Positions 5,583 through 32,623 of a stretch of 64,000 nt of DNA are shown here, piece after piece. Origin of the DNA: Gemmatimonadales bacterium. Lineage in GTDB: Bacteria > Gemmatimonadota > Gemmatimonadetes > Gemmatimonadales > GWC2-71-9. The position numbers and the translations under genes were made by a program. Every line of letters starts with the position of its first letter. Within the stretch, counting starts at the first letter, position 1. Where the stretch lies: positions 1 to 64,000 of the forward strand of contig JAHBVU010000012.1 in assembly GCA_019637315.1 (NCBI GenBank), in the 5' to 3' direction. The notes below the pieces were generated by a model. The model saw only the letters and a list, made by a program, of their open reading frames with translations, did not search any database and was not told where the DNA came from.

Positions 5583-5799
5583 CGTTCGGCCCTCGCTGTC
5601 GACGGAATCCTGCCGGCACTCCTCCGGGCAAGCCGCATACCGAGGCCGTCGAGCCGGGTGTCAGGTAGGGGTCAACGCTACAAGCCATTCCACGTCAACA
5701 ACTTATGGTCGATGCAAAAACTTGCACCCCAACGCCTGTCGCCTGCGCGCTGGGGCCTGGCGGGAAGTTTCGACCGGCAGCAAATGCCGCCGGGTCCGT
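5583..5799 (-). promoter_or_regulatory. Leader region of the flgB operon with a TGCAA/TTGCA dyad
   Basis: This 217-nt gap between the activator gene and flgB should hold the flgB-operon promoter. The only clear element is a dyad TGCAA-N4-TTGCA at 5713-5726 within a locally AT-richer stretch (5690-5726). A GG/GC pair resembling a sigma-54 promoter is present on the minus strand, but the spacing between GG and GC is 11 instead of 10, so I do not call it. The dyad could be an activator site. Confidence 0.35.
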
Positions 5800-7221
5800 T
5801 TAGCGAGGTATGGTCTGCTTGGGGGTGTTGAGCTTGTTGCGGAGGGTCCGCTCGCTGATGCCGAGCAGCTTGGCAGCCCGAGTCCGATTGCCGCCGGTCG
5901 CTACCAGGGCCCGCTGAATCGTGGCAGCTTCGAGCTCCTCCAGATCCAGGCTGTCGGGCATCGCCGGCATTGCGACAGTCGGCCTGCCGTCGGAACTGGC
6001 CAACGGTGCCGGAGCGACGGGGACCGTTCGAGGCAGCGGTGTGCGCGACGGCGAACTGACCGCGTCATCGATGAATGCGTCGGCCTTGAGCATGCCGCCC
6101 CGGGACAGGATCACGGCGCGTTCGACCGCGTTGGATAGTTCGCGGATGTTGCCTGGCCAGCCGCGCTGCTGCAGCACCGCAATCGCCTCGGGAGCGACGC
6201 CGCTGACTTCGACACCCAGCTGCTGCGCCGCCCGCTTGACAAAGTGATTGATCAGCACCGGAATGTCTTCGAGCCGATCTCTGAGCGGGGGCATATGGAT
6301 GGGGACGACGTTGAGCCGGTAATAAAGGTCCTGCCTGAACTTCCCGGCTTCGGCCTCGGTACGAAGGTCCCGGTTCGTGGTGGCAATGAGCCGGACATCG
6401 ACTCGGATCGATTGATGACCGCCGACCCGCTCGAACTCCTGCTCCTGAATGACCCGAAGCAACTTGGCCTGGAGGTCGAGCCGCATCTCGGAAATTTCGT
6501 CGAGCAGCAGCGTGCCACCATGCGCTCGCTCGAAGGCCCCCTGAGTGCGCGCCGTGGCCCCGGTAAAGGCCCCCTTCTCATGCCCGAAGATGGCGCTCTC
6601 CACCAATCCCTCTGGCATGGCGGCACAATTGATCGTGATGAACGGTCGATCGCGACGTTGACTCTGCTCGTGAATGGCGCGGGCAACCAACTCCTTACCG
6701 GTTCCCGACTCACCCTGAATCAGCACCGTCGCGCGAGTCGGCGCCACCGTACCTACCACCTCGAGCACCCGCCGGATTGCCTGCCCGTCGCCCAGAATCT
6801 GCCGACGCCCGCGAAGGCCCGACAATTCCTGGCGGAACGTCTCGTTCTCTTTCCGGAGGCGAATCACCTCGAGCGCCTGGGTCACGGCGATTCGGAGTGT
6901 TTCCTGACGCACGGGCTTGGTGAGGTAGTCGATCGCGCCGCTTCGGAGCGACATGACCGCATGCTCCACCGAGGAGTATCCGGTCATGATGATGACCGGG
7001 ATCCCGTGTCCCTCCTTTTCCAGTTGCGACAGCAGGTCGAGACCCGTGGCGCTGGGCATCCGATAGTCCGAGATGATCAGCTCGAACTGCTGCCGACCAA
7101 CGGCCTTCATCGCTTCGTCGACGCTGTTTGCCAGGATCGGCGTATGACCAAGTTTCGTCAGCGCCGCCTCGAGAACGACGCCAACCGACGGCTCGTCATC
7201 GACGCACAGGATGGTTGCCAT
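5800..7221 (-). CDS. NtrC-family sigma-54-dependent response regulator (flagellar activator)
   Basis: 473 residues with three domains: receiver 1-120 with phospho-acceptor Asp52 in IISDYRMP and Lys102 in LTKPV; AAA+ domain about 140-370 with Walker A GESGTGKE (170-177) and the sigma-54 contact loop GAFTGA (217-222); and a C-terminal Fis-type helix-turn-helix (about 430-473, ATGGNRTRAAKLLGISERTL). Complete and intact, so it should activate sigma-54 promoters by ATP hydrolysis. Comparable to FlrC/FlgR-type flagellar activators. It lies between the rod operon and flgL and is divergent from flgL, whose upstream region carries a very good sigma-54 site. No cognate histidine kinase is in the window. 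Ribosome site GGAGGGGC precedes the ATG. Confidence 0.93.
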   Translation of the reverse strand: MATILCVDDEPSVGVVLEAALTKLGHTPILANSVDEAMKAVGRQQFELIISDYRMPSATGLDLLSQLEKEGHGIPVIIMTGYSSVEHAVMSLRSGAIDYLTKPVRQETLRIAVTQALEVIRLRKENETFRQELSGLRGRRQILGDGQAIRRVLEVVGTVAPTRATVLIQGESGTGKELVARAIHEQSQRRDRPFITINCAAMPEGLVESAIFGHEKGAFTGATARTQGAFERAHGGTLLLDEISEMRLDLQAKLLRVIQEQEFERVGGHQSIRVDVRLIATTNRDLRTEAEAGKFRQDLYYRLNVVPIHMPPLRDRLEDIPVLINHFVKRAAQQLGVEVSGVAPEAIAVLQQRGWPGNIRELSNAVERAVILSRGGMLKADAFIDDAVSSPSRTPLPRTVPVAPAPLASSDGRPTVAMPAMPDSLDLEELEAATIQRALVATGGNRTRAAKLLGISERTLRNKLNTPKQTIPR

Positions 7222-7235
7222 GCCCCTCCGTGGTG

Positions 7236-7251
7236 TGGCTCAAGGTTTGCA
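7236..7251 (+). promoter_or_regulatory. Predicted sigma-54 promoter of flgL
   Basis: TGGCTCAAGGTTTGCA on the plus strand. The GG (7237-7238) and GC (7249-7250) are separated by exactly 10 nt, and both TGGC and TTGCA core elements are intact. The expected start point is near 7262, about 58 nt before the flgL GTG. The adjacent divergent gene is a sigma-54 activator. Confidence 0.75.
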
Positions 7252-7267
7252 GCGTTCGGGCCGATAA
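7241..7267 (+). promoter_or_regulatory. Predicted sigma-28 (FliA) promoter of flgL, overlapping the sigma-54 site
   Basis: CAAGGTTT at 7241-7248, an 11-nt spacer, and GCCGATAA at 7260-7267. The sigma-28 consensus is TAAAGTTT-N11-GCCGATAA, so the -10 element is perfect, the spacing exact and the -35 has two mismatches. It shares bases 7241-7251 with the sigma-54 site. Confidence 0.65.
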
Positions 7268-7319
7268 TCGAATATAGTTAGTCCGCCCGAGGCGGGTCCA
7301 TCGGCGAGGAGCGAAGTAC

Positions 7320-8225
7320 GTGAGGATTACCAGCCTGGGGCAACGCGATCAGATGCTCCGCGACCTGCAGGGTAACTTGGCACGGATCGCCGAGTTACAA
7401 CATCAGGTGGCGACCGGGAAGCGCTTCGACCGGGTCGAACAGGACCCCATGGGAACTGCCCGGCTGCTCCTGGCCAGGCGGGACACCACCGCCATCGACC
7501 AGTACACCAAGAACGCGACGAATGCTCAACTCCGCCTCGGCGCTGAGGAAGCCGTTCTCAAGCAGGTCGACGAGTTGCTCCGCGAGGGTCGCGATTTCGC
7601 CCTCAGCTTTACCCGGGGTAACCCGCCGTACACGGCCGACCAGACCACCCAGCGACAGGCAGCCGTCGAGCACATCGACCGGCTTCTTGCCACCGCCGTA
7701 TCACTCGGGAACACCCGAATCGGCAACGAGTACATCCTGGCCGGGGGCCAGTCCCTGACTCCTCCGTTCGACGCAACCCCCGGAGCCACCCTGGGCGATT
7801 ACCAGGGTGATTCCAGCAAACGGAAGGTCGAGATCGCTCAAGGCGTTCAGATTGCGCCGAACCACACGGGTGACGAGTACCTGGCCCCGGCACTCCTGGC
7901 GCTCCGCGAACTCCGCGACGCCATCGACCCGGCCAACGGCCAAACCGAGGCTCAGGTCGACACCCGCGTGGCAGCGGTGTTCGACGCCAGCCAGGCGCTC
8001 CAGGTCTCCCGCACCGAGACGGCAACGACCGGGAACTACGTTGCCGCCACGCTGGCCAGAAACACCGTCGTGAAGAACGACCTGGTGAACGTCCAGTCGT
8101 CCATCCAGAAGATTCCGCTCGAGGAGTCGATTGCCTCGATTCTCTCGTTGCAGACGACCCTGCAGGCGTCCTACGCCGCCACCAGCCGCCTGATCAACCT
8201 GAGCCTGACCGACTACTTGCGGTAG
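7320..8225 (+). CDS. flgL: FlgL, hook-filament junction protein (HAP3)
   Basis: 301 residues, the normal FlgL length. Forms the second junction ring between hook and filament. The N-terminal helix is flagellin-like (QMLRDLQGNLARIAELQHQV, then TGKRFDRVEQDP). The motif IGNEYILAGGQSLTPPFDA, near residues 134-152, is characteristic of FlgL (consensus GxYIFAGxxTxxxPF). The C-terminal helix ends ATSRLINLSLTDYLR, compatible with coiled-coil packing against the N-terminus. Start is GTG at 7320 with GGAG upstream. It is transcribed alone, opposite to its neighbours, and no flgK precedes it here. Confidence 0.93.
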   Translation: MRITSLGQRDQMLRDLQGNLARIAELQHQVATGKRFDRVEQDPMGTARLLLARRDTTAIDQYTKNATNAQLRLGAEEAVLKQVDELLREGRDFALSFTRGNPPYTADQTTQRQAAVEHIDRLLATAVSLGNTRIGNEYILAGGQSLTPPFDATPGATLGDYQGDSSKRKVEIAQGVQIAPNHTGDEYLAPALLALRELRDAIDPANGQTEAQVDTRVAAVFDASQALQVSRTETATTGNYVAATLARNTVVKNDLVNVQSSIQKIPLEESIASILSLQTTLQASYAATSRLINLSLTDYLR

Positions 8226-8319: not shown

Positions 8320-8706
8320 TCAGGCCGCCACCCCGGTCGGCGCAGCGGAAAGACCGGCCGCAACATTCCGGTTGATGTCGATCAGGACCCGGAGCTTGGC
8401 CGCCGTCGGGAACGCCATCACATCGAAGGTTCGCTTGTCGATGAACTCGATCAAATTGAGCAGCTGCACCTTGAGGTCGCGCGGCAGCGGATTGTCATCC
8501 GACGCCAGCTCGGTCTGAAAGAAGGTCCAAAGCCGCTGATTCAGCTTCAGGGCCTCGTCGAGACGACGCTCTCGGTCGGGAGCCTCCCACTGGTCTTGGA
8601 CTGCCTGGAGTGCCCGCGCGGCACGGAACAGCGCCGAGGCTTCGAGCTGGCGGCCGCTCGTGGAAACCTTTTCGACTGTGGCGTAGGCGTCAGCGATGCG
8701 CGACAT
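8320..8706 (-). CDS. flaF: FlaF, flagellin biosynthesis regulator
   Basis: 128 residues. FlaF is known mainly from Alphaproteobacteria, where it promotes flagellin synthesis or secretion in partnership with FlbT. The family pattern is clear: ALKLNQRLWTFFQTEL in the middle, NPLPRDLKVQLLNLIEFIDK next, then RTFDV and the signature IDINRNVAAGL near the C-terminus. The start overlaps the flbT stop by 17 nt. It is the last gene of the fliC-unknown-flbT-flaF group. Confident on family; the mechanism is not established outside Alphaproteobacteria. Confidence 0.93.
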   Translation of the reverse strand: MSRIADAYATVEKVSTSGRQLEASALFRAARALQAVQDQWEAPDRERRLDEALKLNQRLWTFFQTELASDDNPLPRDLKVQLLNLIEFIDKRTFDVMAFPTAAKLRVLIDINRNVAAGLSAAPTGVAA

Positions 8707-9085
8707 GACTGATGAGTTCCTCTTCGTAGGCGATCAGTTTGCGCCCCAGCTTGAGCGCTTGATAGTACTGCCCGGCGCCGATCCGATCGCTCATCTCGGT
8801 CAGGAGCGGCGCCATGCTGGGTGATGCTTCCAGGACTTCCCGCACGAGCTGCCAATAGAGCTTCTGGTGATCGGCTTCGTGCTCGCGGTCGACGTAGAGC
8901 AGCTGGATCGCAAAGTAGATCCGGCGGCAAGGACTCGTCGCCTCGTCGATCGAGAGCACTTCCTTGCCCCGAAGTATCGGCACATCATTCTCAATGATGA
9001 GCGCGCACCGGGAGTCACCATTCCGCACGACAGCATTGCCGACGATCAACCGCTCCCCGGCTTTGAGAGATACACGCAGTGGCAT
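8690..9085 (-). CDS. flbT: FlbT, flagellin mRNA regulator
   Basis: 131 residues. In Caulobacter FlbT acts post-transcriptionally on the 5' leader of flagellin mRNA. The N-terminus MPLRVSLKAGERLIVGNAVV, then RNGDSR, and the internal FAIQLLYVD segment match the FlbT family pattern (MPLKLSLKPGE, then a repeated YFAIQLLY-type helix). C-terminal helices about residues 85-128 are typical. It is 7 nt downstream of the unknown gene and overlaps flaF. A likely RNA target in this locus is the hairpin leader of fliC at 10604-10626. Confidence 0.93.
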   Translation of the reverse strand: MPLRVSLKAGERLIVGNAVVRNGDSRCALIIENDVPILRGKEVLSIDEATSPCRRIYFAIQLLYVDREHEADHQKLYWQLVREVLEASPSMAPLLTEMSDRIGAGQYYQALKLGRKLIAYEEELISHVAHR

Positions 9086-9760: not shown

Positions 9761-10576
9761 TTAGAAGAGCCGGAGGATCGCCTGCTGGCTCTGGTTCGCC
9801 AGGCTCAAGGAGATCACACCGAGCTGCTGGCGCGTCTGCAGCGACAGCAGGTTGGCGCCTTCTTCGTTCTGGTCCGCAACCGTCAGCTTGTCGGCACCTT
9901 CCCGGAGGACGTTGCGCATCTGGTCCAGGAAGTTGTCGCGGATCGTCAGCTGGCTCGACACCGCACCGAGGGTCGCCGAATTGGTCCGCAGGGTCGACTG
10001 CGCTGCGTTGAGCTGGCTCACCGCTGCATCGAGGGCCGCGTCCGCCGTCCAGGTGCTGTCGGCAATCGCCGAAACCTCGAGACCGACGGTCGACGACGCG
10101 TCGAAGCCGTTGATCGAGATCTTCGAGCTGCCGTCCTCGTTGGTCTTGACGACGAGCTCGCTCGACGCGGCCAACAGGTTGGTGCCCTTGTACTTGGCGT
10201 CGATCGCCGCCTGGTCGATCTGCTTCAGGACTTCGTTGAACTGCGCAGCCAGGGTCGACCGGCCGGCCGTGGTGGCCGAACGCGCCGACTCGGCGAGACC
10301 CTTGGCGGTCTCGACCAGCTTCGAGATCGTCTCGATGCCCGCCGAAGCAGCCTTAATCGTCTGGATCGCCTCGCCAATCTCGTTCTTCCGGGCGCCAAGG
10401 TCATTGGCGCGGCCCCGAGCGTTCTGCGCCGCGAAGTACGCGGTGGCGTCGTCGATCGGGTTGTTGACCTTGAGGCCAGAGGCCAGCCGCTGCTGGGTGG
10501 TGCCGATCAGCGAGGCGGTGTTCTGGAGGGTCAGAAGGTTGGCACGAATGCCAGAGGTAAGTGACACGTCAGCCAT
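9761..10576 (-). CDS. fliC: FliC, short flagellin
   Basis: 271 residues. Filament subunit. Conserved terminal D0/D1 helices are visible: N-terminal ANLLTLQNTASLIGTTQQRL then ASGLKVNNPIDDATAYFAA, and C-terminal DEGANLL-like NEEGANLLSLQTRQQLGVIS ending SQQAILRLF. There is no variable D2/D3 insert; the centre (about 140-185) is Ser/Thr-rich and would be the exposed, glycosylatable part. Length and terminal sequences resemble alphaproteobacterial flagellins (about 270-280 residues). It is preceded by a sigma-28-like promoter and a leader hairpin, and the gene upstream is a TPR-glycosyltransferase. Confidence 0.96.
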   Translation of the reverse strand: MADVSLTSGIRANLLTLQNTASLIGTTQQRLASGLKVNNPIDDATAYFAAQNARGRANDLGARKNEIGEAIQTIKAASAGIETISKLVETAKGLAESARSATTAGRSTLAAQFNEVLKQIDQAAIDAKYKGTNLLAASSELVVKTNEDGSSKISINGFDASSTVGLEVSAIADSTWTADAALDAAVSQLNAAQSTLRTNSATLGAVSSQLTIRDNFLDQMRNVLREGADKLTVADQNEEGANLLSLQTRQQLGVISLSLANQSQQAILRLF

Positions 10577-10684: not shown

Positions 10685-10712
10685 GTTTCGGCACCCCCCC
10701 TCAAAACCTTTA
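10685..10712 (-). promoter_or_regulatory. Predicted sigma-28 promoter of fliC
   Basis: Minus strand TAAA at 10712-10709, a 16-nt spacer, and GCCGAAAC at 10692-10685. Consensus is TAAA-N15-GCCGATAA. The TAA stop codon of the upstream glycosyltransferase is part of the -35 TAAA. Start point would be near 10678. Confidence 0.65.
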
Positions 10713-14864: not shown

Positions 14865-16135
14865 ACGACCTCGAGTACGCCGGCGTGACGGAGGACCTTC
14901 TCGAACGCCAGCACAACATCATCGAGGTCGGCTCGGCTCACGCCAGCATGGCAGACCGTGAGATAGAGCAGTTCCTGCTCGTGCATCCGCTCCGCCACGG
15001 GGCAGAGCCCGTCGGGATAGCGGGCGGGTGCCCTGCCCTGCTGCCGAAACGGAAAACCGTCGCGACCCAGCGCGATACCCTGGCGGTACATCGGCTGGCG
15101 GTAGAGCGGTTCGACGTACCCGACATGAATCGGCACCCCTTCCGCCCGAACGGCCTCGGCAAAGCGGCCGCGGCTCAGTCCGGTGGCCTCTGCGTCGTAC
15201 TTGATGGCGTAGACGTAGTACCCGTGCCGCACACCCTCGCGCACGGTCGGGGGAGTCAGCCCGGTCAGGCCTCGCAGCTGCGCCGTCAGGTAGTCCGCAG
15301 CGTCGATCCGAGGCTGGACCAGGCCCTCGAGCTTGCGAAGCTGTTCGAGAGCAATGGCCGCTTCGATCTCGGTCATCCGATAGTTGAAACCAACCATGTT
15401 GACCAGGTCGTCATGCCCCTTGGCTTTGACGACGGCCTCCCCATGGTTGCGAATCAACTGCAGCCGTTCGGCCAGACGCGAATCGTCGGTGACAACAACG
15501 CCGCCCTCACCGCTGTGGATTGTCTTGTGATAATTGAGGCTGAAAACGCCCATATCAGCCAGGGTTCCCGCCCAGCGATTGCCCAGCCGGGCTCCCGGTG
15601 CCTGCGCAGTGTCTTCGATCAGGACGATCTCCCGACCTGCCGTGACCGTCCGCAACTCGTTCCATGCTGCCGGATGGCCGAAGAGATCGACACCGATAAC
15701 AGCGCGGGTCCGATCGGTCAGGAGACGGCGGACCGCCTCGGGGTCGAGGCAGAAGGTCTCGGGGTCGATGTCCGCAAAGACCGGTACCGCGCCATAGACG
15801 ATGGCCGCGGCAGCCGAGGCACTCATCGTATATGGAGTGACGATGACCTCGTCCCCAGGCCCCACCCCGGCCGCGCCAACCGCCGCGTAAAGCCCGGACG
15901 TGGCCGAGTTGACCGAGACGGCATGGCCCACCCCGAAATGATGGGCCCAGGCCGATTCCAGCGCCTGTACTCGCGGTCCACCGAAGAAGTCGGGGCCCCA
16001 GACACCCACGAACTGCGAGAGCACGCCGCTGTCGAGTACCTCGAGCACGGCACGCCGCTCCTCGGCCCCGATGGAGTTGTAGGTCGGAAAGGGGGCCGTC
16101 CGGATCGGAGTGCCACCCTGAATAGCCAGCTTCAT
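14861..16135 (-). CDS. DegT/DnrJ/EryC1-family sugar aminotransferase
   Basis: 424 residues, PLP-dependent fold type I. The PLP lysine is Lys204 in NYHKTIHSGEGG, and EDTAQAPGARLG near 174-185 carries the cofactor-contacting Asp. The N-terminus KLAIQGGTPIR resembles the AHBA-synthase/scyllo-inosose-aminotransferase branch. The likely reaction is transamination of a keto-sugar or keto-cyclitol. It differs from the PseC aminotransferase at 22057, so it may serve a second sugar pathway, or a modification made together with the oxidoreductase two genes upstream (17216-18208). 4-nt overlaps with both neighbours. Confidence 0.9.
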   Translation of the reverse strand: MKLAIQGGTPIRTAPFPTYNSIGAEERRAVLEVLDSGVLSQFVGVWGPDFFGGPRVQALESAWAHHFGVGHAVSVNSATSGLYAAVGAAGVGPGDEVIVTPYTMSASAAAAIVYGAVPVFADIDPETFCLDPEAVRRLLTDRTRAVIGVDLFGHPAAWNELRTVTAGREIVLIEDTAQAPGARLGNRWAGTLADMGVFSLNYHKTIHSGEGGVVVTDDSRLAERLQLIRNHGEAVVKAKGHDDLVNMVGFNYRMTEIEAAIALEQLRKLEGLVQPRIDAADYLTAQLRGLTGLTPPTVREGVRHGYYVYAIKYDAEATGLSRGRFAEAVRAEGVPIHVGYVEPLYRQPMYRQGIALGRDGFPFRQQGRAPARYPDGLCPVAERMHEQELLYLTVCHAGVSRADLDDVVLAFEKVLRHAGVLEVV

Positions 16136-31576: not shown

Positions 31577-31770
31577 GGCAGCAAAAGCGACCATATCATG
31601 GCCAGGCCCTAAGTTCATATGACATTGACTGGCAACGACTTACGGTCACTATCGCGGGGGCTGTTCCGACCGGGTTTACCGATCGGTCTGGCGACGACGC
31701 CGGGGAGAAATCGACCGGACCTTTCTTCCCGGGCACAGAGCGTGCACTCCTGACGCGCGGAACCCGGACT

Positions 31771-31797
31771 TAAGTTTTCCGGGCAACCCGCCGATAC
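31771..31797 (+). promoter_or_regulatory. Predicted sigma-28 promoter of flgM
   Basis: TAAGTTTT at 31771-31778, an 11-nt spacer and GCCGATAC at 31790-31797. Relative to TAAAGTTT-N11-GCCGATAA there are two -35 mismatches, one -10 mismatch and exact spacing. About 57 nt separate the expected start point from the flgM ATG. Confidence 0.78.
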
Positions 31798-31860: not shown

Positions 31861-32196
31861 ATGGCGATCAACCCAGCGGCACCACAAGGCCCGCGACGAG
31901 GAACCGACCCCGCCGCGCTCGAAGCGAATCGCGCCCAGGAAGCCCGGCGCCCTGGATCCGGCAATCCGGAGCCCGGAGCAGCCGAGTCGACCAAACCGCG
32001 TCCCGATTCGGTCGACCTCTCGTCTGACGCGCGTGCTCTGGCGGAGCAGCAGGAAGTCCGCAACGCCAAGTCGTCCTTGCCGACCGACCGTCTCAAGGAG
32101 ATTGGCGAGCGCCTGGCATCCGGGTTCTACGATCAGCCCGAAGTGATCGAGTCGGTGGCGCGCCGAGTCTCGACCGACCCCGAGTTCCGCGGTTGA
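31861..32196 (+). CDS. flgM: FlgM, anti-sigma-28 factor
   Basis: 111 residues. FlgM holds sigma-28 (FliA) until the hook is complete and is then exported. The N-terminal 50 residues are Pro/Gly/Arg-rich and disordered. The C-terminal sigma-binding part is clear: DSVDLSSDARAL near 50-61 and LPTDRLKEIGERLASGFYDQ, then PEVIESVARRV, matching the FlgM pattern (D-x-V-x-L-S ... Y-x-x-x-x-x-x-A-x-x-[IL]). Preceded by a sigma-28-type promoter, as in other flgM autoregulation loops. No sigma-28 gene itself lies in this window. Confidence 0.9.
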   Translation: MAINPAAPQGPRRGTDPAALEANRAQEARRPGSGNPEPGAAESTKPRPDSVDLSSDARALAEQQEVRNAKSSLPTDRLKEIGERLASGFYDQPEVIESVARRVSTDPEFRG

Positions 32197-32203
32197 GCGC
32201 GTC

Positions 32204-32623
32204 GTGACGGCTCAACCGGCGCGGGAATCCGCATCGCTTCCGACCGTCCTTCTCGTTGACGACGACGAGATGGTCTGTCGGAGCGTGGCGCGTTTTCTGG
32301 GGAGAGCTGGCTTCGACGTGACCGTGACCCATTCGGGCCACGACGCGCTGGAGTGGGTCCGGTCCCGCCACTTCGATGCCGTCGTGACCGACCACAACAT
32401 GCCCGTCATGAACGGCATCGAGCTGATCGAGGAACTGGTCCGCCGAAATCCCGAGCTCCGGGGGCACATCTTTCTGACCAGTGGCGACCTCGACATCCTG
32501 AGGCACGACGCCTTCCTGAAGAGCACCGGATCGCGGGGGCTCGAAAAGCCGTTTCAGGTGGCAGAGCTCGCGTCCACCCTCCGCAGCACCCTCGGCCTGG
32601 CCCCCGCCCCCCCGAACAACTGA
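32204..32623 (+). CDS. CheY-like single-domain response regulator
   Basis: 139 residues with a GTG start 7 nt after the flgM stop. A receiver domain only: acidic pocket VDDDE (18-22), phospho-acceptor Asp63 in VVTDHNMP, Thr/Ser in FLTSGD and Lys in LEKPF. The spacing implies cotranscription with flgM from the sigma-28 promoter. The N-terminal 12 residues and C-terminal APAPPNN tail are extra. It might modulate the motor or the flagellar transcription cascade; without a nearby kinase the input is unknown. Confidence 0.88.
   Translation: MTAQPARESASLPTVLLVDDDEMVCRSVARFLGRAGFDVTVTHSGHDALEWVRSRHFDAVVTDHNMPVMNGIELIEELVRRNPELRGHIFLTSGDLDILRHDAFLKSTGSRGLEKPFQVAELASTLRSTLGLAPAPPNN

Follow-up and report, generated by a model that had tools for sequence, protein, structure and literature searches.

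Can one short stretch of DNA upstream of a flagellar gene be read by two unrelated sigma factors? The question is raised by flgL in a 64,000-nucleotide stretch of a Gemmatimonadales genome (GCA_019637315.1, contig JAHBVU010000012.1, positions 1 to 64,000; hereafter the window), where a preliminary description placed overlapping sigma-54 and sigma-28 promoters at 7236-7267. On the sequence comparisons below, we consider it moderately probable that flgL has a real double promoter, in which a sigma-54 site is superimposed on an ancestral sigma-28 site and the two would be used early and late by mutually exclusive polymerases.

Layout of the flgL upstream region

The flgL gene, encoding the hook-filament junction protein (HAP3), occupies 7320-8225 (+) and was identified with NCBIfam TIGR02550 (144.6 bits, cut-off 127.2). 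Its start at 7320 (+) is separated by a 98-bp intergenic gap from the start, at 7221 (-), of a divergent gene (5800-7221, -) encoding an NtrC-type response regulator. This protein contains receiver, sigma-54 AAA+ and Fis-type HTH domains (Pfam PF00072, PF00158, PF02954), with an intact Asp52, a Walker A motif at residue 170 and GAFTGA at residue 217, confirming the earlier identification of the divergent gene as a sigma-54 activator with an intact GAFTGA loop. It scores below the NCBIfam cut-offs of both FlbD (374.8 of 750 bits) and FlgR (314.7 of 750 bits). The genome (3.91 Mb, 36 contigs) harbors one copy of RpoN (PF04552) and also encodes FliA (234.9 bits, cut-off 189.6). Across the family, rpoN is present in 91 of 102 genomes, flagellated or not, and flgL in 10; the presence of RpoN is therefore permissive rather than diagnostic of the flgL promoter, and co-occurrence of rpoN with flagella was discarded as evidence because rpoN is found almost everywhere in the family.

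The sigma-54-type match TGGCTCAAGGTTTGCA lies at 7236-7251 (+), with the -24 GG at 7237-7238 and the -12 GC at 7249-7250, giving a predicted start at about 7262. Sites were assigned to this class when GG and GC stood exactly 10 bases apart in a sequence near TGGCACG-N4-TTGCW, as at 7236-7251. The sigma-28 match extends over 7241-7267 (+) and consists of CAAGGTTT (7241-7248), an 11-nt spacer and the -10 element GCCGATAA (7260-7267), with a predicted start at about 7274. Its -35 box, taken as CTCAAGGTTT (7239-7248, +), fits the CT[CA]AAG of flgL promoters throughout the phylum, and the arrangement CTCAAGGTTT-N11-GCCGATAA is covered by the sigma-28 definition used here, namely a -35 of [CT]T[CA]AAG or TAAAGTTT, a spacer of about 11 nt and a -10 of GCCGATAA. 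The sigma-28 -35 box sits within the -24/-12 region of the sigma-54 site (TGGCTCAAGGTTTGC, 7236-7250). Re-reading of the sequence found the bases, spacings and coordinates of both matches as originally reported, and the two predicted starts are only about 12 nt apart, making "nearly the same start point" a reasonable description.

A further feature, missed by the preliminary description, is a possible sigma-70-type promoter of the activator (TGGACC-18-TATATT, 7271-7300, -), which was found by a consensus scan, has a weak -35 and probably overlaps the flgL promoter stretch on the opposite strand. Its TATATT and 18-nt spacing are retained in three congeners, and the whole element overlaps the flgL start region. 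Within the 18-nt spacer lies an inverted repeat that is conserved in part. The flgL leader was also considered as the site of a conserved RNA hairpin, an idea that was rejected, as the region has no compensatory pairs and folds no better than shuffled sequences.

A sigma-28 promoter of the type common in the phylum

With at most one mismatch, the pattern NAANNTTT-N11-GCCGATAA has six matches in the genome and none in the reversed control, and the flgL site is its sole exact match. In a survey of flgL upstream regions at 89 Gemmatimonadota loci, most promoters are sigma-28-only and follow the form CT[CA]AAG, 14-15 nt, NCCGATA. The sigma-28 regulon is also evident elsewhere in the window, as sigma-28 promoters precede the flagellin gene (9761-10576, -; Pfam Flagellin_N and Flagellin_C) at 10686-10712 (-; TAAAGGTTT-N11-GCCGAAA) and a FlgM-like anti-sigma-28 gene (31861-32196, +) at 31769-31797 (+; CTTAAGTTTT-N11-GCCGATAC, a match to the sigma-28 pattern), the latter gene being a weak assignment (TIGR03824, 24.5 bits, below the cut-off of 40.75). 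The sole exact genome match, the empty control, the phylum-wide promoter type and its use at the flagellin and FlgM-like genes together make it near certain that the sigma-28 half of the flgL promoter is real. A looser scan of six genomes for TCAAG-N13-18-CCGATA was set aside: matches were several-fold more frequent than in the control, yet most were not evident flagellar promoters, and the genome without flgL scored like the others.

Several neighboring features were recorded alongside these promoters. A receiver-only response regulator gene (32204-32623) begins a few bases after the FlgM-like gene and is, given this short gap, probably on one sigma-28 transcript with it. Genes for FlaF and FlbT of the Alphaproteobacterial type lie beside the flagellin gene (8320-9085, 9761-10576). 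FliD, tried as a comparison gene, was dropped because it went undetected in the genus: FliD_N had zero matches in its flagellated genomes, while FliD is present in G062, a genome of another genus of the same family. A different filament module may have taken the place of the original one, perhaps by transfer.

Constraint beyond the sigma-28 pattern

The sigma-54 motif alone is uninformative, since its core, TGGCNCN5TTGCW, has 14 matches in the 3.91-Mb genome versus 19 in the reversed control, and genome-wide counts were accordingly rejected as evidence, being at chance level. At the genome density, the 98-bp gap should contain about 2e-4 matches to the core on its sense strand. Conservation is more telling. 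The activator and flgL are likewise paired in three congeners (identities of 77-83% for the activator and 60-66% for FlgL), giving four species with a readable flgL promoter, all from one clade; in a fifth flagellated congener, G005, the contig breaks off within flgL. Across the four species TGGCTCAAGGTTTGC (7236-7250) is identical at 15 of 15 positions, is followed by CGATAATC and has a single occurrence in each genome. Four-fold degenerate sites are invariant in the same four species at a rate of only 21%, for flgL and the activator gene alike, so that an identical block of 15 bases is a strong sign of constraint. Downstream, the congeners read GTCGATAA at the -10 element, with CGATAA invariant, and one of them has a spacer shorter by one base; the "perfect -10 and exact spacing" originally attributed to the sigma-28 site thus hold for the window species but not for its congeners.

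Whether sigma-28 recognition alone could account for this constraint is the central issue. The best-surviving alternative, which we regard as unlikely though it deserves serious weight, is that flgL has an ordinary sigma-28 promoter only, that GG and GC reflect an extended -35 preference of the genus's FliA or shared ancestry, and that RpoN is unused. Sigma-28 is the common promoter type at flgL, phylum-wide and in the remaining genera of the family; this reading also fits the chance-level density of the sigma-54 motif, and CTCAAG is preceded by G in 26 of 34 sigma-28 flgL promoters from 18 other genera. In those same 34 promoters, however, GG occurs in the -24 register in five cases and GC in the -12 register in three, and the two never occur together. 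Four sigma-28 flagellin promoters of the genus, including the one in the window as an internal control without the sigma-54 GC, point in the same direction: CT[CA]AAG-N-TTT and GCCGA are retained, whereas the GG position reads GG, GG, CG and AA (GG in 2/4) and GC is found in 0/4. The outer T, the G and the downstream GC therefore lie outside the sigma-28 pattern seen elsewhere, yet they do not vary at flgL, whereas most neutral sites do, and sigma-28 alone leaves the conserved GG and GC unexplained.

The positions that discriminate are few, because TTT and one G of the 15-mer are favored by sigma-28 in the genus too. Those strictly specific to sigma-54 are T, G, G, C and possibly a fifth, and their chance invariance at the neutral rate is about 0.002. 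The evidence that conservation of T, G and GC in the flgL promoter reflects sigma-54 specificity is consequently good but not overwhelming. The letter-for-letter retention of the block in four species favors a real early/late double switch over a fortuitous match.

Sigma-54 sites at flgL across the phylum

Canonical sigma-54 sites (TGGCAYG-N4-NTGC) are found at about -55 to -90 of flgL in the genera g49, g51, g59 and g70. The loci with canonical sites are L110, L114, L116, L118, L119, L120, L121, L122, L125, L126 and L130-L132. Some members of g51 and g59 carry an extra CCGATAC about 50 bp upstream, whose -35 is often poor, making a tandem arrangement of sigma-54 and sigma-28-like sites in these genera less certain. 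Some flgL genes of g49 and g70 possess a sigma-54 site without a clear sigma-28 site, suggesting that sigma-54 can provide a productive flgL promoter in this phylum. These genes weigh against a second alternative, in which the sigma-54 polymerase acts mainly as a roadblock that silences flgL until the basal body is in place and productive transcription comes from sigma-28 only. The geometry of the site would allow this, as a closed sigma-54 complex would cover the sigma-28 -35 box, and we nevertheless judge it quite improbable.

The double promoter that we favor appears confined to one genus, in that sigma-54 and sigma-28 elements within one block occur only in the window's genus among the 89 flgL loci. 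In a tree of FlgL proteins, the group with canonical sigma-54 sites, which belongs to another family, forms one clade (100/100) apart from the window's genus (100/100). Within the window's family, the flgL promoters that could be read in further genera (g20, g30, g35) are sigma-28-only, and the sigma-54 motif is not retained in g20. The flgL site of G062, GTGCTCAAGGTTTCG, shares the sigma-28 box CTCAAGGTTT and differs at four bases from the sigma-54-competent version. The simplest history suggested by these patterns is that sigma-54 was gained twice independently at flgL in the phylum.

Other probable sigma-54 flagellar promoters and the divergent activator

A sigma-54-type promoter, CGGTATGCGGCTTGCC at 5627-5642 (-), lies directly behind the activator gene and precedes the flgB-flgC-fliE-fliF-fliG-fliH cluster. 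Its GG-N10-GC arrangement (GGTAYGNNGYTTGC) is present in 5/5 genomes, another genus included, in poorly conserved surroundings. Upstream of fliL, TGGTAYG-N4-TTGC is found in four species (14870-14885, -, in locus L105). These conserved sites make it very likely that sigma-54 serves flagellar genes in the genus. The -24 half of the flgL site, TGGCTCA, differs from the TGGTAYG of flgB and fliL. The flgB and fliL sites, summarized as GGTAYG-N4-TTGC, suggest that Gemmatimonadota have a sigma-54 regulon for flagellar genes. The two overlapping flgL promoters originally proposed are thus supported unequally, the sigma-28 promoter strongly and the sigma-54 promoter through conservation, internal controls and the other sigma-54 flagellar promoters of the genus.

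Control of the flgL sigma-54 site by the divergent activator is plausible, as the activator gene lies directly upstream of the flgB operon with its conserved sigma-54 site and stays paired with flgL in five genomes. Alignment of the flgB and flgL regions showed no common conserved dyad that could serve as an enhancer for the activator, and a shared operator palindrome upstream of flgB was rejected, since the one present in the window is not preserved in the congeners. The idea that the 15-mer is a sigma-28 -35 box plus an operator, or a leader element of the divergent activator mRNA, with no sigma-54 promoter, is the least probable of the alternatives: a start from TATATT (7276-7271) would place the 15-mer in the activator transcript leader and the divergent layout suits autoregulation, but the block exactly matches the GG-N10-GC register and the TGGC/TTGC bases, occurs once per genome and is absent before flgB and fliL, which have clear sigma-54 sites.

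The flgK gene is located away from flgL, as part of the large set of clustered flagellar genes on contig C13. Given this distance, flgL would need an early promoter of its own. The start of the window (contig C12, fliE-F-G-H) and the end of C13 (fliJ-fliK-flgD-flgE) look adjacent across an assembly gap, and joining them would give one very long flagellar cluster with flgK at its end.

Proposed early and late use of the double promoter

We infer the early/late timing and the polymerase competition from the geometry of the site and from known flagellar hierarchies. In the favored double-promoter model, the divergent activator would be active during building of the hook-basal body, and sigma-54 polymerase would start flgL transcription at about 7262, so that early FlgL production would coincide with expression of the flgB and fliL operons. 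Export of FlgM would then free FliA, and sigma-28 polymerase would start flgL at about 7274, supplying FlgL alongside flagellin. Because their footprints overlap, the sigma-54 and sigma-28 holoenzymes should exclude each other, and an idle sigma-54 polymerase may delay sigma-28 use of the flgL promoter. With the putative sigma-70-like promoter of the activator on overlapping DNA, competition may involve as many as three polymerases.

In E. coli and Salmonella, dual class 2 and class 3 transcription of flgKL is established (PMC4183435), and the arrangement proposed here would resemble it in that a hook-associated gene is first expressed along with the hook-basal-body genes and later from a FliA promoter. 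The FliA site of E. coli flgKL, TCAAG...GCCGATAAT, is very similar to that of the window (PMC4183435). Unlike in the window, the early transcript in these species is read-through from the far-upstream, FlhDC-dependent flgB operon, no sigma-54 is involved and promoter bases are not shared (PMC4183435). Pseudomonas aeruginosa has 43 RpoN/FliA direct crosstalk genes, which are under both factors (PMC4362757); that case is reported as an overlap of regulons, and a common 15-bp element or flgL was not found there (PMC4362757). As in Vibrio, Campylobacter and Helicobacter, an NtrC-type activator and RpoN would drive middle genes before FliA and FlgM control late genes (PMC3930126); in the passages of that review considered, flgL and overlapping promoters go unmentioned, whereas here one gene would have both promoters at one site (PMC3930126). 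The window also resembles the Caulobacter FlbD system in placing an NtrC-type activator near flagellar genes and in encoding FlaF and FlbT (PMC3930126). It differs in that its activator is below the FlbD cut-off, and in that late genes of Caulobacter are not described as FliA-dependent in that review (PMC3930126). In the literature searched, neither an overlap of sigma-54 and sigma-28 promoters at flgL nor any work on Gemmatimonadota flagellar promoters was found, which is not proof that none exists.

If the sigma-54 half is silent, the flgL site is an ordinary FliA promoter. The broader reading, drawn from the comparisons above, is that one 15-bp sequence is read by two unrelated sigma families and that flgL came twice independently under sigma-54, here through few substitutions over an inherited sigma-28 -35 box, producing a stable, selected and mutually exclusive early/late switch; we rate its chances as even. 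Middle-to-late flagellar control and the evolution of sigma specificity have usually been studied with separate promoters. At flgL, Gemmatimonadota offer a natural series of putative promoter states, comprising sigma-28 only, sigma-54 only, sigma-54 with an upstream sigma-28-like site, and the fully overlapped form. This series makes the gain of a second sigma factor at an existing promoter directly testable, and likewise the competition of sigma-54 with the sigma-70 family for shared bases.
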